This document shows, in pieces, positions 21,289 through 60,121 of a stretch of DNA of 64,000 bases. The stretch is from Bordetella genomosp. 7 (GTDB lineage Bacteria > Pseudomonadota > Gammaproteobacteria > Burkholderiales > Burkholderiaceae_B): assembly GCF_002261265.1 (NCBI RefSeq), contig NZ_NEVK01000006.1, positions 372,001-436,000 of the forward strand. The letters run 5' to 3'. Position numbers and translations under genes: made by a program. Position 1 is the first letter of the stretch; every line of letters begins with the position of its first letter. The notes under the pieces were generated by a model. It saw only the letters and a list, made by a program, of their open reading frames with translations. It did no database searches and was not told the origin of the DNA.

Positions 21289-22005
21289 ATGAGAGACATT
21301 GACGAGATAAGGCGAGCCAACCTGCGCCGCCTCGAAGCCGAATTCATGGGGCCTGCCGCCACCGCGAAAGCGCTTGGCATGTCGCCTGCCCAATTCACAA
21401 ATCTTCGTGATGGAGCAAAAGACTCCAAGACCGGCAAGCCCAGAGGCATGCGCAAGGAAACCGCATGGCGAATCGAGGACGCTGCCGGAAAGCCGCGGGG
21501 CTGGTTAGACACTGTTCACTCTGACGAGGAGGCCGCTAACCCCACCGGGATAACCCTACTTCCCACGTCTGCGACACGATCCGTTACCATCAGTCAATAT
21601 GACACGGGGGGCAGGATGGGAGCGGCTGGGGTGGAACTGAAGGATCAGCCGGGCGTAATCGAGAGCTGGAGAGTCAGCCGCGAATGGCTGGAGAAGAACG
21701 TGCGCGGCTACTCCCAGGTAAACAGCCTTTGCATAGTGACCGGGTTCGGCGATTCCATGCGCCCAATGTTTAACCCCGGCGATCCGCTGATCATCGATTC
21801 CAGCGTACGGTCGGTCGAGTTCGACGCCGTGTACTTTTTCAGGGTCGGCAACGAGGGTTTCATCAAGCGCCTTCAACGGGTGCCTGGCAAGGGTTTACTG
21901 GCGATCTCAGAAAACCCGGCGTATCGGGATTGGGTGATAGACCCAACCATGGACCTGGAAGTGTTCGGCCGTGTGCTCAAGGTTTGGCGCAGCGAGGACT
22001 TTTAA
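21289..22005 (+). CDS. CI-type prophage repressor (LexA/S24 peptidase family)
   Basis: 238 residues. N-terminal HTH region (about 10-60: GPAATAKALGMSPAQFTNLRDG). C-terminal S24 peptidase: likely cleavage at Ala113-Gly114 (MGAAGVE), nucleophile Ser156 (GFGDSMRPMF) and general base Lys193 (GFIKRLQRV). RecA-stimulated self-cleavage should permit SOS induction. Divergent from the cro-like gene with an 85-bp operator region between them. Confidence 0.94.
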   Translation: MRDIDEIRRANLRRLEAEFMGPAATAKALGMSPAQFTNLRDGAKDSKTGKPRGMRKETAWRIEDAAGKPRGWLDTVHSDEEAANPTGITLLPTSATRSVTISQYDTGGRMGAAGVELKDQPGVIESWRVSREWLEKNVRGYSQVNSLCIVTGFGDSMRPMFNPGDPLIIDSSVRSVEFDAVYFFRVGNEGFIKRLQRVPGKGLLAISENPAYRDWVIDPTMDLEVFGRVLKVWRSEDF

Positions 22006-22007
22006 TT

Positions 22008-22430
22008 GTGTCTACTCCCCTCTCCCAGGCTTCTATCGTAGCCCCGCTTCTCGTGATGGCGCTTTCAGGGTGCATGGCACCCTACGAGTCCATGAAGAAT
22101 AACCAGTACAGCCAGGTCGAACCGCAGGCTACTCCAGACGAATTGGCGGGGACCTGGACGGGCACTAGCGGCCCATACCTTATGACGATCAAGCTTGGCG
22201 CAGAAGGGCGGGGCATGTCCTGCGCCAGCTGGCAGGCTAACGAGTCCGTCAACAATGTGAAGTATTCCGGTGGCCGCCTCTATTTCCCCGATGGGATGCA
22301 GATGACGGTGGGCGCAGAAGGTGGGCAGTTAGTGGCCGTCTACGACCAGAAAGGCATGGAGCCGATCAGGCTCAACCCCGACACCGAGCTAGTCGAAGCG
22401 TCACCGTACTGTAGGGACAAGTTGCGCTAG
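22008..22430 (+). CDS. Prophage lipoprotein (lysogenic conversion candidate)
   Basis: 140 residues from GTG 22008, 2 bases after the repressor stop. Signal sequence with lipobox LSGC (Cys near residue 22): VAPLLVMALSGCMAPYE. The mature part is small and beta-rich with GTWTGTSGPYLMTIKLG, a pattern seen in lipocalin-like or J517-type phage lipoproteins. Being cotranscribed with the repressor, it should be made in the lysogen and may alter the envelope or exclude other phages. Function is inferred. Confidence 0.75.
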   Translation: MSTPLSQASIVAPLLVMALSGCMAPYESMKNNQYSQVEPQATPDELAGTWTGTSGPYLMTIKLGAEGRGMSCASWQANESVNNVKYSGGRLYFPDGMQMTVGAEGGQLVAVYDQKGMEPIRLNPDTELVEASPYCRDKLR

Positions 22431-22442
22431 CCCCAACGAAGA

Positions 22443-22460
22443 AGCCGCCCGAGGGCGGCT
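22443..22460 (+). terminator. GC-rich hairpin after repressor-lipoprotein unit
   Basis: AGCCGCCC and GGGCGGCT form a perfect 8-bp stem with a 2-base loop (probably opened to 4), 13 bases after the lipoprotein stop. No T run follows, so it may need Rho or act as a 3' stabiliser. Confidence 0.45.
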
Positions 22461-22508
22461 AGGGGAGACGGCACTCCATCGCGGGGACGGCCCGCGCTCC
22501 TTAACTCG

Positions 22509-22609
22509 GCCTGCGTAGAACCAATCGACCTGCACATCTATCGTCGACCTGCTCAAAACCAGTCAACCTGCATTTTTTTTGACGACCTGCAGTTTTTCGA
22601 GTAACCTGC
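22509..22609. repeat. Six iterons of (A/G)CCTGC at exact 19-bp spacing upstream of parA-like gene
   Basis: ACCTGC occurs at 22528, 22547, 22566, 22585 and 22604, with GCCTGC at 22509: six sites, each exactly 19 bp apart. The consensus around the core is (T/A)C(G/A)ACCTGCA, and spacers are often T-rich. A promoter-like TTGACG (22579) - 17 bp - TAACCT (22602) lies within the last repeats, so occupancy would cover the promoter of the ParA-like gene. Such arrays are typical of plasmid centromeres and their operators. Confidence 0.85.
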
Positions 22610-22636
22610 ACCTTCCTAAACTCACCGGGTGAACAG

Positions 22637-23677
22637 ATGACTACGGGCCTTGCACGAATTATTGCCAATCATGACCGCTCGCTTGAAGAATCGCCTGAAG
22701 GTCCGATCCAGCTGCGCAGGCGGTCCTACGCGGTTACGAATTTGCGAGGCGGCATAGGAAAATCCACGTTGTCTTTCAATCTGGCGTGGATGTTCACGCG
22801 CCACCACTCGACGTTAATCGCGGATTTATGCCCACAACGGAATCTGACCGAATCGATCATGCGCGGGCAGAAGCCAGAGGTAACTATCAGCCACGCACTC
22901 AACCCAAAAGTCTTGGGACCAGCTTTTGGCGAAGTGCCGCAAGATATTTCCTATCGCGCCAGCTCTTTGAACGATCACTTCAAAGGTGGCAAATCGGGGT
23001 TTCTGGTGCCTGGCGACGGATCGCTATTTGCTTTTCCCTCGGCGCTGTATCAACAACTGCAGCAAGCTATGGCGGCCGGAAACAAAAAAGCCGTTTCCAA
23101 CATCCTATTCAGCCTGCGAGATGTCCTGTCGGAAGAGGCCTTGGAAAAGAAATGTTCGCGAATCTTGATGGACTGCAGCCCGTTTTATGGCGGGGGAACT
23201 CATCTATCTTGGTGCGCATCGGACGCCCTCATCATTCCAGTCCGTGTAGACGAACATTCAATTGAATCGCTTGACATCACGCTTGGAATGCTCGCCAACC
23301 CTGACAGCGACTTCAACGTATGGGGCGCTCGCGCGGGTGGTCTCAAGCCTCCAAAGGTTGCAGCTATTGTCATGACGATGGTGGGCGCGCGCAGCCCCAA
23401 AAAGGGCGTTAAGGACCGAGCTTCGCAAATGTACGTTGAGCGTGCATACGCGACCGCCGCCAAATACCCGGAATTGTTCGACGTAGATGACCCGGCGGAT
23501 GCATTCGCAATAACGGATGACTTCATGTCGGCCGGCAGAATTAGCGGCGCGGAAGGCATCCCTATACCCAAGCTGAAGGTAGGGCAATTCCACACGGTGA
23601 ATGGCAGCAGGCTGCAGGTCAATCAATCTCAAACCAAGTACCGAAAGGAACTGGAATACCTGCTAAGCATTCTCTGA
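22637..23677 (+). CDS. ParA/MinD-type ATPase
   Basis: 346 residues. Deviant Walker A at 36-44, NLRGGIGKST, but the signature Lys of KGGxGK is Arg here. Walker B-like RILMDCSPFYGGG, and DALIIPVRVDEHSIESL corresponds to the later ParA motif. C-terminal half is longer than in MinD and unlike Soj. No HTH domain precedes the ATPase, as in small type Ib ParA proteins. It follows the iteron array and ends at a good terminator, so it forms a single-gene unit. Whether it partitions DNA, excludes phages or regulates is unknown. Confidence 0.87.
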   Translation: MTTGLARIIANHDRSLEESPEGPIQLRRRSYAVTNLRGGIGKSTLSFNLAWMFTRHHSTLIADLCPQRNLTESIMRGQKPEVTISHALNPKVLGPAFGEVPQDISYRASSLNDHFKGGKSGFLVPGDGSLFAFPSALYQQLQQAMAAGNKKAVSNILFSLRDVLSEEALEKKCSRILMDCSPFYGGGTHLSWCASDALIIPVRVDEHSIESLDITLGMLANPDSDFNVWGARAGGLKPPKVAAIVMTMVGARSPKKGVKDRASQMYVERAYATAAKYPELFDVDDPADAFAITDDFMSAGRISGAEGIPIPKLKVGQFHTVNGSRLQVNQSQTKYRKELEYLLSIL

Positions 23678-23733: not shown

Positions 23734-23760
23734 AACCGCCCTCCCCGGGCGGTTTTCTTT
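23734..23760 (+). terminator. Rho-independent terminator after parA-like gene
   Basis: AACCGCCC and GGGCGGTT (8 bp) flank a TCCCC loop and are followed by TTCTTTT. Because the stem ends in AA/TT it may also stop the convergent lipoprotein transcript. Confidence 0.9.
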
Positions 23761-24390: not shown

Positions 24391-24927
24391 ACCCAACGCA
24401 GCAAAGAACGGTTCACCGCCAAGCGGGGCCAAGTAGGGCTGCAAGCAGTACCCGCTCTTTAACACGACGAAGCACAAACGTTCCGCGCCCGCAGTGATGC
24501 GACGCGACAGGGGAGATATCGGACGCCCTGGACAGAAAGATGCCGAAAAACGCCCGCGCAAGGTGGCTGGACTGACTAAGGCTGGCCAGGTGCAGAGCCT
24601 GGCGGCGTGGGCGCGATCCAGTAGGACGCCAAGAATCGATCGATGGCGAGTAATCGATCGATGACCACCGGGAGCAGTCCGGGAACCACTGACCATTGCG
24701 AGCCGGGATAACCGGGAGTTGCGCAACTGGCAGTGACGGGCGGGGCGGCGCTGAGGCTATGTCTCGCGCTGCCCTGCCCCGGAATCATCCGCCTGCCCTG
24801 TGACAGAGGGCATACGGATGGGAAACGCGAGCCTGACCGCGCACAGGCCCATGGGGGACATGGTTAAAGCCCCAATCCGAAGCGCCATTCGATGAGTGCT
24901 GCGCTCTGTATGGACAAGGAGACAGAC
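24391..24927 (+). ncRNA. Structured ~0.5-kb untranslated leader of the pL-like transcript
   Basis: No plausible gene lies between the promoter and the first start codon at 24928. The leader contains a boxA (24453-24464), a direct repeat of ATCGATCGATG (24636-24646 and 24653-24663), a self-complementary AGTTGCGCAACT (24718-24729), a long GC-rich stem between about 24740 and 24781, and an ATCCG...CGGAT hairpin with an inner GCCCT/AGGGC stem (24787-24819). It may hold antitermination or processing signals. Confidence 0.55.
24453..24464 (+). promoter_or_regulatory. boxA antitermination element
   Basis: CGCTCTTTAACA matches the ribosomal-RNA type boxA bound by NusB/NusE. It lies about 60 bases downstream of the pL-like start, the place of nutL in lambda. 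A boxB-like hairpin is not obvious. Confidence 0.7.
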
Positions 24928-25218
24928 ATGGAATTGCCGATCAAGCGTAAGCCTGGGCGTCCGCGAAAACCGGGCGGACCATTTAAGCGGCTCTCGATCA
25001 GCATGCCTACTGATGTGAAAGGGGGGCTTGATTATGCCGCGGCCCTAACTGGGATGGGCACAAGTGACCTCGTGACCGCCTGCGTGCGCATAGGACTTCG
25101 CCAAGCCATTCTCGACGCAATGCAAACGAAGATCGAAAGCCTTGGCGCGAGAGGCTCCCCTCTGACCGCAGCCGACATCCTTCGGGTTTATGGCTTGCCG
25201 GAAGATCTATTTGGATGA
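24928..25218 (+). CDS. Small DNA-binding protein: AT-hook plus ribbon-helix-helix
   Basis: 96 residues from ATG 24928, with AAGGAGA before it. N-terminus KRKPGRPRKPGGP is an AT-hook (GRP core). Residues about 20-55, FKRLSISMPTDVKGGLDYAAALTGMGTSDLVTACVRIGL, fit a ribbon-helix-helix fold: a beta strand then two helices. It is the first gene of the early operon and has a paralogue 30 bases downstream. Regulator or partition partner; both possible. Confidence 0.72.
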   Translation: MELPIKRKPGRPRKPGGPFKRLSISMPTDVKGGLDYAAALTGMGTSDLVTACVRIGLRQAILDAMQTKIESLGARGSPLTAADILRVYGLPEDLFG

Positions 25219-25248
25219 TTCGCGCCCTACAGCGTAATGGAGAGAGAT

Positions 25249-25530
25249 ATGGAAACGCCTCCCAAACGAAAGTTAGGGCGCCCGAGAAAACCGGGCGGTC
25301 CCGATCAGCAGTTCTCAATTCGAATGCCTGAGCATGAGCGGCTGAAATTGTTATGCGCCTCTAAGGCAACCGGAAAAAGCAAGAGTCAACTGATCGCCCG
25401 GTGCGTCAACCTATCGCTTAATCAGGTTTGCATCGAGGTTCTTGACGAGCAAGCGCGACGGCTGAGGGAGTTGATCAACCCCACTCCCCTCCCTGACGAA
25501 GCAATGGCAGGTGAGCAGGAAATCGACTAG
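25249..25530 (+). CDS. Small DNA-binding protein, paralogue: AT-hook plus ribbon-helix-helix
   Basis: 93 residues from ATG 25249 (GGAGAGA upstream). Same architecture as the preceding protein: KRKLGRPRKPGGP, then QQFSIRMPEHERLKLLCASKATGKSKSQLIARCVNLSL, and a C-terminal helix EVLDEQARRLRELIN. The AT-hook is nearly identical while the helices have diverged, suggesting duplication with change of DNA target or heterodimer formation. Confidence 0.72.
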   Translation: METPPKRKLGRPRKPGGPDQQFSIRMPEHERLKLLCASKATGKSKSQLIARCVNLSLNQVCIEVLDEQARRLRELINPTPLPDEAMAGEQEID

Positions 25531-33061: not shown

Positions 33062-33280
33062 ATGGAAACGTTTCTATCCCCCGAGGAACTTACCCGCCTG
33101 ACGGGTTATAAGTCCTCCGCTTGGCAGCGCCGCTGGCTGAAATCCAACCGGTGGCGATTTGACCAGGATCGGCTCGGAAGACCTATCGTCGCCCGGGCCT
33201 ATTACCTCAAGCACCTCGGCATCACGGCCCCCGATGCGAGCAGTGCAGAACCAAATTGGGAGGCAGTAGGGGTTGCCTGA
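33062..33280 (+). CDS. DUF4224 excisionase-like protein
   Basis: 72 residues: FLSPEELTRLTGYKSSAWQRRWLKSNRWRFDQDRLGRPIVARAYYLKHLG, the pattern of DUF4224, a small winged-helix-like group placed beside phage integrases. TGGAGGC precedes the ATG; its TGA shares a base with the integrase ATG. It probably directs excision. Confidence 0.85.
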   Translation: METFLSPEELTRLTGYKSSAWQRRWLKSNRWRFDQDRLGRPIVARAYYLKHLGITAPDASSAEPNWEAVGVA

Positions 33281-34320
33281 TGGGCAGGAAGCGACTTACG
33301 AATACCCACCTAAGCCTGCGGGTGTATGTCAAGCATGGCCGTTACCGGGACACTTACTACACGATCATCGCCGGGAAGTACCATGGCCTTGGCAATGACC
33401 GGGCCCACGCAGAGCGCAAGGCCCGCGAGCTTCACGGCGGCGCATACGTCCGGGGAACCATCGCCGACATGTGCCTGAGCTTCATAGCATTCCAGCGGGA
33501 CTTGATCGCCTCTGGGGACCCATCCGCCCTGGCTCCCCGGACGGTCGACGACTACGAGTCGGCCTTCATGGTGCACATCATCCCGAAGTTCGGCCACATG
33601 AAGCCGTCAGAATTCCGGCCATCGCACAAGGGCAAGTACCTGGATCTGATGCGGGCAAAGGGCCGGGGCGTTAGGGCCAACCGGGAAATGGCCGCACTCG
33701 GGTCGGCGTTCAACTACGGGATTCGGCGTGGCATGGCCGAGGTCAACCCCTGCCACGGCGTCAGCCGAAACCCCGAGCGGCCCAGGTCGCGGCGCCCGGA
33801 GAAGGTCGAGGTCAACGCATTCCTGCAGATCGCACAGAAGCGCGGTGAGGGCAGCTACATGACGGCCCTGATCGGCCTGATGGTCGGCATAACCGGGCGG
33901 CGGCGGGCGGAAGTCCTGGAGTTGCAGAAGTCAGCCATCACCGAGGGCCATGTGCGCGTGGTAGCCGCCAAGCGCAAGGCCGGGGAAGCTGAGCGGGTCT
34001 ATGAGATTCAGTGGACGCCGCTGCTGCGCCAACTGCTGGGCGAGGCCCTGCGGATGTCGCAAAAGCACGACAACGACTATGTGTTTACGTCGAGATCGGG
34101 AGCGCCCTACACCGACTCAGGTTTCAAGGCCAACTGGTCAAAGATCATGCATGCCTACGTGCTGGCTGGCGGCGAGCGCTTCACGGCGCACGACCTGCGG
34201 GCCATGTACGTCACGGAAATGATCGAGCAGGGGAGGAACCCAGAGACGCACAAAAACCCTGCCACGACGCGCCGTGTTTACGACCGTCGCCGCAAGGTCA
34301 AAGTGCAGCCCTTGGCGTGA
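33280..34320 (+). CDS. int: Tyrosine recombinase, phage integrase
   Basis: 346 residues from ATG 33280. N-terminal arm-binding (about 1-60) and SAM-like core-binding (62-160) regions. Catalytic domain: the RRR of GITGRRRAEVLEL (first Arg, near 207-209), AAKRKAGE (Lys), AHDLR (His304/Arg307) and TTRRVYDRR (Tyr334). Ends 66 bases from a tRNA-His 3' end, so it most likely uses that tRNA. Confidence 0.95.
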   Translation: MGRKRLTNTHLSLRVYVKHGRYRDTYYTIIAGKYHGLGNDRAHAERKARELHGGAYVRGTIADMCLSFIAFQRDLIASGDPSALAPRTVDDYESAFMVHIIPKFGHMKPSEFRPSHKGKYLDLMRAKGRGVRANREMAALGSAFNYGIRRGMAEVNPCHGVSRNPERPRSRRPEKVEVNAFLQIAQKRGEGSYMTALIGLMVGITGRRRAEVLELQKSAITEGHVRVVAAKRKAGEAERVYEIQWTPLLRQLLGEALRMSQKHDNDYVFTSRSGAPYTDSGFKANWSKIMHAYVLAGGERFTAHDLRAMYVTEMIEQGRNPETHKNPATTRRVYDRRRKVKVQPLA

Positions 34321-34430
34321 AATATTAGAAAGCGCCCGAACAATTAGAAAATGTTAGTGGGCGCTATCGCCAGGAGGCTTTAATTTGGGGTGGCTGATGG
34401 GACTCGAACCCACGACAACCGGAATCACAA
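34321..34430. other. Probable prophage right junction (attR) at tRNA-His
   Basis: Integrase gene ends at 34320 and the encoded CCA end of tRNA-His begins at 34386. Integrases of this type cross over inside the 3' half of tRNA genes, and the tRNA is left intact here. An AGCGCCC/GGGCGCT inverted repeat lies at 34331-34366. The core cannot be defined because the left junction is outside the window. Confidence 0.6.
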
Positions 34431-34462
34431 TCCGGGACTCTACCAACTGAGCTACAGCCACC
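34386..34462 (-). tRNA. tRNA-His (GTG)
   Basis: Cloverleaf folds on the minus strand with the extra 5' G (34462) of tRNA-His opposite discriminator C, anticodon GTG in loop ATTGTGA, T-loop TTCGAGT, and encoded CCA (34388-34386). Its 3' half faces the integrase, as expected of an attachment site. Confidence 0.97.
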
Positions 34463-42872: not shown

Positions 42873-42889
42873 AGGCGCACCATGCGATG

Positions 42890-43157
42890 GTGTCTGACAC
42901 CCTTCGGGAGTCAGACACATCCTTGCCAATTGGTGTCTGACTCCCGAAGGGTGTTAGACACATCCTTGCCTATTGGTGTCTGACTCCCGAAGGGTGTCAG
43001 ACACCAACCGCCCTGCACACACCCAGCCCCCCGCCACCCCACATCCCGCCAGGTGTCTGACTCCCGAAGGGTGTCAGACACCAACCGCCCTCCACACACC
43101 CAGCCCCCCGCCACCCACGTCCCGCCAGGTGTCTGACTCCCGAAGGGTGTCAGACAC
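42890..43157. repeat. Five GTGTCTGACTCCCGAAGGG(A/T)GTCAGACAC-type palindromes
   Basis: Copies at 42890-42918 (opposite orientation), 42933-42961, 42976-43004, 43053-43081 and 43129-43157, each about 29 bp with GTGTCTGAC/GTCAGACAC ends and a central CTCCCGAAGGG. The last three lie in ~77-bp near-duplicate units with a C-rich linker. Fills most of the 413-bp gap before the phospholipase gene; the remaining ~130 bp should hold its promoter. Related to the array near 59.6 kb. Confidence 0.93.
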
Positions 43158-43285
43158 CAACAAGCCCGGTCCGCCCTTGATTCCCCTGTCGCTTGCAGCG
43201 CGGTCCGACACCTTCTTACATGCGGTTGCAGTCCGGGCCCGTGTCGGTGCTACATTGCCTCGGTCGTATTTCTAGCAATCGCGAT

Positions 43286-59562: not shown

Positions 59563-60121
59563 ATGTCTGACACCACGGTGTCAGACACCCCAAGGCGCCG
59601 CGCAAGATACCCCAGCACAGCTCGCGATCGTTGTCTGACACCTCGGTGTCAGACACCCCCAGGCTCAACATCCCCGGCTCCTCCGCAGGAAGTCCCCGAG
59701 GACACCGATTGGTGTCTGACACCTCGGTGTCAGACACCCCTGGCGCCGCGCACGATACCCCAGCACAGCTCGCGATCGGTGTCTGACACCTTGGTGTCAG
59801 ACACCCCATGGCGCCGCACACGATACCCCAGCACAGCTCGCGATCGGTGTCTGACACCTTGGTGTCAGACACCCCTGGCGCCGCACACGATACCCCAGCA
59901 CAGCTCGCGATCGGTGTCTGACACCGCGGTGTCAGACACCCCAAGGCGCCGCACACGATACCCCAGCACGGCTCGCGATCGGTGTCTGACACCTCGGTGT
60001 CAGACACCCCTGGCGCCGCGCAAGATACCCCAGCACAGCTCGCGGTCGGTGTCTGACACCCCCAGGCTCAACATCCCCGGCTCCTCCGCAGGAAGTCCCT
60101 GAGGACACGGCCGGTGTCAGT
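59563..60121. repeat. Tandem array of ~67-bp units carrying GGTGTCTGACACC(T/G/A)(C/T)GGTGTCAGACACC palindromes
   Basis: Seven palindromic copies and a final half-palindrome, most in a unit of ~67-68 bp with a GCGCCGC(A/G)CA...GATACCCCAGCACAGCTCGCGATC linker. Copies differ mainly in the two central bases of the palindrome. Two units have an alternative CCCAGGCTCAACATCCCCGG linker, one at each end. Occupies nearly all of the 672-bp gap; no gene is supported in it. Palindrome ends match the array near 43 kb. Confidence 0.93.

Follow-up and report, generated by a model that had tools for sequence, protein, structure and literature searches.

Directly in front of an orphan ParA-like ATPase gene, in the 64-kb stretch of DNA analysed here as a whole (the window), six RCCTGC cores follow one another at exact steps of 19 bp, and the same array stands in front of related parA genes in other phages and recurs in many phage contigs that have no ParA. 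We suggest, at about an even chance, that a DNA-binding protein from outside the ParA module recognises the clustered repeats, and that the array serves as the operator of parA and probably as a centromere-like or incompatibility site. The features of the window on which the argument draws are the following.

21289 to 22005, + strand: gene of a CI-like S24 repressor, with the module downstream of it (Pfam, PHROGs)
22443 to 22460, no strand assigned (scored on the - strand): terminator-like hairpin 5' of the module (three hairpins in the region vs 1.8 expected from shuffles)
22490 to 22495, + strand: degenerate seventh core GCCCGC, in register (one mismatch in the pattern scan)
22509 to 22609, + strand: direct-repeat array of six units, one RCCTGC core per 19 bp (sequence; conserved 5' of ParA homologues)
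22579 to 22607, + strand: putative parA promoter, TTGACG (22579-22584), 17 bp, TAACCT (22602-22607) (read by eye)
22637 to 23677, + strand: orphan ParA-like ATPase of 346 aa with Walker A RGGIGKST (Pfam, PHROGs, alignment, model)
23734 to 23754, + strand: terminator-like hairpin 3' of parA (same count of three in the region vs 1.8 expected from shuffles)
33256 to 34320, + strand: tyrosine integrase (PF00589) adjoining tRNA-His (profile match)

The cores, either GCCTGC or ACCTGC, start at 22509, 22528, 22547, 22566, 22585 and 22604, and the six exactly spaced cores of the preliminary description held on re-reading of the sequence. In the last units the downstream half is T-rich. The final core ends at 22609 and the ATG of parA is at 22637, leaving a gap of 27 bp; the array is thus as close to the ATPase gene as had been claimed, with a distance one base shorter than the 28 bp given. 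A pattern of four RCCTGC at 19 bp, allowing up to two mismatches, gave four overlapping matches in the 64-kb window, all at the array, where dinucleotide shuffles gave 0.00 expected (n=100), and a chance origin is excluded by these shuffles. Nor is the array a perfect tandem repeat of the minisatellite kind, as the spacers diverge while cores and spacing are constant. In its own 4.1-Mb genome it is the only exact run of four units, and none was found in eight other genomes of the genus.

The putative parA promoter overlaps the last two array units. The claim that the array contains the likely promoter of the ATPase gene is supported by this reading by eye of TTGACG and TAACCT at 17 bp and not by a consensus promoter scanner, which made no call at 22579-22607. 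The arrangement TTGAY...TANCCTGC within the array was found in nine viral contigs, and all nine (9/9) were ParA contigs from the protein scan described below; the remaining ParA loci did not match this exact pattern. As to the prophage surroundings, 'tRNA integrase' is a plausible label, because the integrase adjoins the tRNA-His at 34386-34461; no second copy of the tRNA ends was found within the window, and the other prophage end may fall outside it. The G+C content of parA is 53.7% vs 60.3% in the prophage part, a level that only 3 of 668 sliding prophage windows reach or undercut, and such a low value fits a moron. In the host part of the window, at 42888-43161 and 59628-60060, there are tandem arrays with GGTGTCTGACACC-type inverted repeats.

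The ATPase has a P-loop domain of the ParA/MinD type (AAA_31 PF13614, E 2.8e-13; CbiA PF01656, E 4e-07) and matches phrog_164, 'ParA-like partition protein', over profile positions 226-456 of 500 (E 9.8e-40). Its Walker A motif departs from the signature KGGxxK[S/T] of deviant Walker A ATPases, and the Arg noted earlier in place of the signature Lys is indeed present in RGGIGKST. It is not unique to this protein: in an alignment of 20 relatives RGG[IV]GKS was found in 14/14 aligned array ParAs and in one Aeromonas plasmid ParA, and five remoter plasmid or phage ParAs had Lys instead of Arg. The Arg thus characterises this ParA branch. The same Arg occurs in BcsQ, for which RGGVGTT is given in the available part of one review (PMC9178275).

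The reading frame of ParA is open and well conserved over 14 homologues. An AlphaFold model of modest but usable quality (14 sequences, mean pLDDT 67.9) showed ParA-like alternating strands and helices with a single N-terminal helix (4-17) and no extra N-terminal helices able to form a helix-turn-helix (HTH). This agrees with the lack of an HTH domain in the preliminary description, as did Pfam, PHROGs and NCBIfam, in which the protein had neither an HTH nor a ParB match. The adjacent ParB reported as missing was missing here as well, and among 23 ParA loci no ParB-like gene was conserved beside ParA. Type Ia ParABS loci are marked by a ParA with an N-terminal HTH and by a ParB encoded next to it, and the window module has neither. 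Of the marks of type Ib it has an upstream repeat array at the putative parA promoter and lacks a small centromere-binding protein gene beside parA, none being conserved in the 23 loci.

These 23 loci came from viral contigs scanned with the ParA protein sequence alone, that is, with no use of the array; in one of them (L009) the ParA is 100% identical to that of the window. In 22 of the 23, four to seven cores stand immediately 5' of parA. In the remaining locus (L028) the ParA match starts at residue 68, and no array was seen in the 190 bases inspected. ParA-plus-19-bp arrays, which had been proposed as something to look for in other elements, accordingly exist, and the claim that had been staked on an array upstream of close homologues of the ATPase came through. 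After dereplication at 97% there were 26 ParA loci, 16 found by protein (the window included) and 10 by array. Their chains, in which steps of 9, 19 and 28 bp were permitted, comprised four to eight exact cores; 112 of the steps measured 19 bp and 6 measured 9 bp. A chain of at least three CCTGC at 19 bp was present in 25 of these loci; for five-mers overlapping CCTGC the figures were 16 (CTGCA) and 8 (ACCTG), and for the other nine of the 12 five-mers listed at most 4. The core carries 1.9 bits per base vs 0.03-0.75 elsewhere in the 26 loci, a core value that arises by construction because exact cores were demanded. One end of an array (for example in L123, L055, L064 and L029-L031) often bears one additional core at a distance of 9 bp, so the sites lie on a lattice of about 9.5 bp.

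Eight loci of remote ParAs (six plasmids and two phages, the two Aeromonas loci being nearly identical) had no CCTGC array. Of 200 genomes of the order, only the window's own had a ParA of this branch (E up to 1e-40). In the 100 bp upstream of position 6001 in L039, a remote Salmonella phage ParA (OR850760) has a TTACCA repeat with 26-27 bp spacing. It may be that every orphan phage ParA is paired with an operator array of its own.

When viral contigs were scanned for four CCTGC at 19 bp regardless of ParA, at least 120 stretches were obtained. Sorting by hand set aside 17 near-perfect tandem repeats and left 23 stretches with ParA and 80 without, where ParA-linked means a ParA within the following 1.6 kb and some of the 80 end early at a contig or locus edge; an automatic tandem-repeat rule flagged 21 of the stretches, two of them ParA loci. 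A stricter scan for CCTGCA gave 51 stretches in all at 19 bp, vs 4 when the spacing was set to 20 bp and 3 when the core was reversed, the 7 control stretches being counted without one-by-one inspection. Sixteen of the 51 loci were new, and two of these precede ParA. When phrog_164 was searched across the whole records of 50 array contigs, the 6 that matched were precisely those with a ParA-linked array; the remaining 44, some of them fragments, gave no match. With 44 of the 50 array contigs searched being without ParA, the array is not specific to ParA. The unit consensus is alike with and without ParA, CCTGCA[CG] followed by a T-rich stretch. All 20 fetched contigs (20/20) had one array of at least three exact cores each, and the reversed control gave 0 in these 939 kb. 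Two array rows (L066, L090) came from IMGVR_UViG_2579779074_000005, so 'one per phage' may have exceptions.

The positions of the arrays vary, as they lie inside reading frames, between genes, near terminator-like sequences and in the parA promoter. The reading frames that hold arrays include presumably Rz1-like and Ead-like ones and others; HNH/DUF968-like is likewise a presumptive name for a protein. Arrays were found in named Pseudomonas phages: in JBD44 (L163), phi297 (L167) and Marin (L166) a segment of about 66 bp with a four-unit array lies at the beginning of an Rz1-like gene (at about 3229), just past its start codon, and exactly this segment is missing in the alignment from Fyn8 (L164) and U9 (L165), which have no array elsewhere. 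In mechanically derived frames over 20 array clusters without ParA the longer open frame was on the GCAGG strand in 17, and 12 of the 17 clusters whose GCAGG-strand frame reaches 300 nt share one codon phase. Read by eye, all GCAGG-strand frames of the consensus unit are free of stops. In our own reading the strand bias may reflect better tolerance of a hydrophilic peptide, and for the arrays without ParA a peptide-level role or shared ancestry may apply. The diversity of cores vs spacers in the Pseudomonas gene arrays gave a permutation p of 0.039, which is not counted as evidence because the search demanded exact cores. Perfect 19-bp repeats of GTGACCTGCATATCTATGC were seen between two HTH-like ORFs in another phage (L357:5753-5815 and L350:12732-12794), and are possibly an unrelated operator array.

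The hosts extend over several groups. Among the matches listed, Rugamonas had an array with ParA (RGGVGKST) and a prophage-like stretch of Curvibacter had an array. A second pattern scan gave at least 118 rows, of which five passed a divergence filter and two (L246, L312) were accepted. In the family of a Chimaeribacter genome two of 198 genomes had arrays, one with ParA and one without, and in a genome of this family the ParA cassette adjoins an ORF that by eye resembles a tail-fibre chaperone. Array contig L110 has flanks similar to those of Klebsiella and Enterobacter phages. For ten of the 12 listed phage records similar to the L110 region the match is confined to one flank of the array, and one fetched Klebsiella phage record similar to it had no array in a 6.7-kb stretch. 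In 368 other genomes of the class no exact four-unit array was found (0/368), which speaks against a binder of host origin, for which chromosomal sites would be expected. The reversed-core control matched in 3 of 369 genomes of the class, which means that plain tandem repeats can produce patterns of this kind too.

The search for a binder gave no conserved partner gene in the module. Frames overlapping parA aside, the only universal gene of the 23 ParA loci was ParA, and CI-type repressors came next. Across 20 array contigs and the window, the best family from blastp clusters occurred in 12, and profile iteration (330 of 649 seeds) gave as near-universal families only CI-type repressors (20/21) and integrases (17/21). 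The window encodes at 24892-25218 and 25237-25530 two tandem small proteins with an AT-hook-like N-terminus (KRK.GRPRKPGGP) before a ribbon-helix-helix (RHH)-like segment; neither had a Pfam match, and the second has one weak repressor profile in PHROGs. These had been put forward as candidate binders, which is not borne out: of 21 phage genomes the window alone showed the GRPRKPGG stretch, though in G055 an ORF has GGRPR followed by an RHH-like segment, and around the 23 ParA loci a gene of this kind is not conserved. A Cro-like gene beside the perfect-repeat array in L357 was likewise rejected as binder, that array probably being another operator. The binder would then be supplied in trans, or be ParA itself, or be a diverged small protein that the searches missed.

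That ParA binds the array itself, as an autorepressor and an exclusion factor like the orphan ParA ParI, with the arrays without ParA as decoys titrating such a ParA, is in our view doubtful. ParA alone is conserved in the module, the remote ParAs are without a CCTGC array and one of them, the phage ParA OR850760, has its own upstream TTACCA repeat, and ParI offers a precedent in the available part of its description (PMC9178275); against this, the window ParA has no HTH match and one N-terminal helix in its model (mean pLDDT 67.9), 44 of 50 array contigs are without ParA, and its own genome holds no second four-unit array. Iteron-like anatomy and varied array positions are also what would be seen if the arrays mimicked the iterons or centromere of a plasmid family and acted as incompatibility determinants against competitors, and in P1 the incA iterons stand directly 5' of the par operator and parA. 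We regard this as quite unlikely, since the P1 iterons differ in sequence and have steps of about 21-41 bp, and an exact three-unit array was found in none of nine plasmid or phage-plasmid records (P1, pCAR1, which we take to be an IncP-7 plasmid, and seven others). A plasmid BLAST with two arrays, a weak test, gave weak short matches only, and two that were inspected had no array; an Enterobacter plasmid match upstream of repA had two cores 30 bp apart, taken as chance. An iteron replication origin would have a Rep gene beside its iterons, and no Rep family is conserved at the ParA arrays. The suggestion that a phage-plasmid partition locus decayed and left the module as its relic does not hold up well and seems to us very improbable: its ParA belongs to the partition family, and phages with parABS such as RedRock have an array-like parS according to the available part of the source (PMC7157519), and yet the ParA frame is open and well conserved over 14 homologues, the array is kept in 22 of 23 loci, neither Rep nor ParB is seen beside the module, and the nine records just named have no exact three-unit array.

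Mosaic spread of the in-gene arrays as selfish or neutral in-frame linkers or recombination junctions, with the ParA array as the only functional one, would fit the stop-free GCAGG-strand frames of the consensus unit and their mostly single codon phase, the array segment that Pseudomonas phages have cleanly gained or lost in one gene, and the 10 of 12 listed records similar to L110 that match on one array side only. It is nonetheless improbable, as arrays are also found in intergenic positions and close to terminator-like sequences, occur once per fetched contig, and have the same core as ParA promoters found without using the array. The readings tested (ALTERNATIVES) were plasmid iterons, a phage origin, an RNA family and a defence gene. 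The origin of a phage initiator was set aside because JBD44, which has the array, and U9, which does not, have initiators whose N-termini are similar to the eye. Rfam covariance models had no match up to E 1 in 22300-22800 of the window, and PADLOC defence models had none to four proteins. Less likely candidates, also set aside, are Rho sites, CsrA sponges, anti-SD pairing and integrase arm sites, as GGA is not kept, a 19-bp lattice is unneeded and the positions vary.

Repeats upstream of a ParA gene are in themselves a known kind of arrangement. In type Ib loci such as TP228 parFGH and pTAR, ParA has no HTH, the parA promoter carries direct repeats, and a gene for a small centromere-binding protein comes after parA; the window module is alike in the HTH-less ParA and the promoter repeats, whereas the small partner gene is not conserved here. 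In P1 incA-parA a 19-bp iteron array also stands 5' of parA, but these are RepA iterons of other sequence and spacing, and P1 has repA, parB and parS. The proteins of phrog_164 match the window ParA by profile, and the remote relatives are without the array. ParI, from a genomic island of Pseudomonas putida KT2440, destabilises IncP-7 plasmids and resembles the window ParA as an orphan ParA ATPase on an integrated element, but it has KGGVGKS, and no 19-bp array is mentioned in the available part of its description; the comparison is by description only (PMC9178275). STM14_3218 of Gifsy-1 is, like the window ParA, a ParA-like ATPase, encoded in the immunity region of a prophage without ParB; it differs in being tied to expression of an RNA repair operon, which its disruption lowers, again compared by description only (PMC9879122). 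The srpMRC system of SXT/R391 provides partition with a repeat centromere on an integrating element (PMC4489591), which weakens the argument that an integrated phage should not need partition, and parABS of mycobacteriophage RedRock has repeat centromeres (PMC7157519); both encode their own centromere-binding protein, unlike the window module. ParI, the Gifsy-1 gene, SXT/R391 partition and the RedRock repeat centromeres are, in the parts of these sources available, precedents for parts of the mechanism proposed below. A full-text search, with most subscription papers and preprints outside its reach and therefore weak evidence, found no description of this array. As far as the searches reach, the Arg branch, the lack of a partner gene and, most of all, the presence of the array where ParA is absent appear to be new.

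Taken together, we favour sites for a protein from outside the module. A sequence-specific protein would occupy the 19-bp lattice, reading an asymmetric 5-bp core and a T-rich half, and the array family would be cis-elements, once per genome as examined, of many temperate beta- and gammaproteobacterial phages. In this lineage the array would have turned into the operator of an orphan parA, so that the bound array covers the parA promoter and limits ParA, and ParA would probably be a partition or incompatibility ATPase working on DNA with a bound array, such as excised copies or competing elements. The module may be a self-contained moron of array and parA. It has no ParB gene, so the binder would come in trans, most likely from the host. 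Of the plasmid-like centromere/operator first proposed for this DNA, the operator or centromere look and the linkage to the ParA clade stand; a ParA-specific centromere does not, given the 44 of 50 array contigs without ParA. A wider reading, which we put forward tentatively, is a widespread cis-element with about one 19-bp CCTGC array per temperate beta- or gammaproteobacterial phage, read by one conserved trans-acting protein of the host or a mobile element, as a centromere- or tether-like address tag that one lineage has coupled to an orphan ParA. Several findings count against the favoured explanation: the searches gave no binder, the related Pseudomonas phages Fyn8 and U9 have no array, the Klebsiella stretch similar to L110 has none either, and the promoter scanner made no call.

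If one protein reads the array in many temperate phages, the array would be an unrecognised common handle between host and prophage, and this would bear on prophage location, silencing, segregation or exclusion. Through the array-binding protein, the role of the orphan phage ParA would also become a directly testable question.
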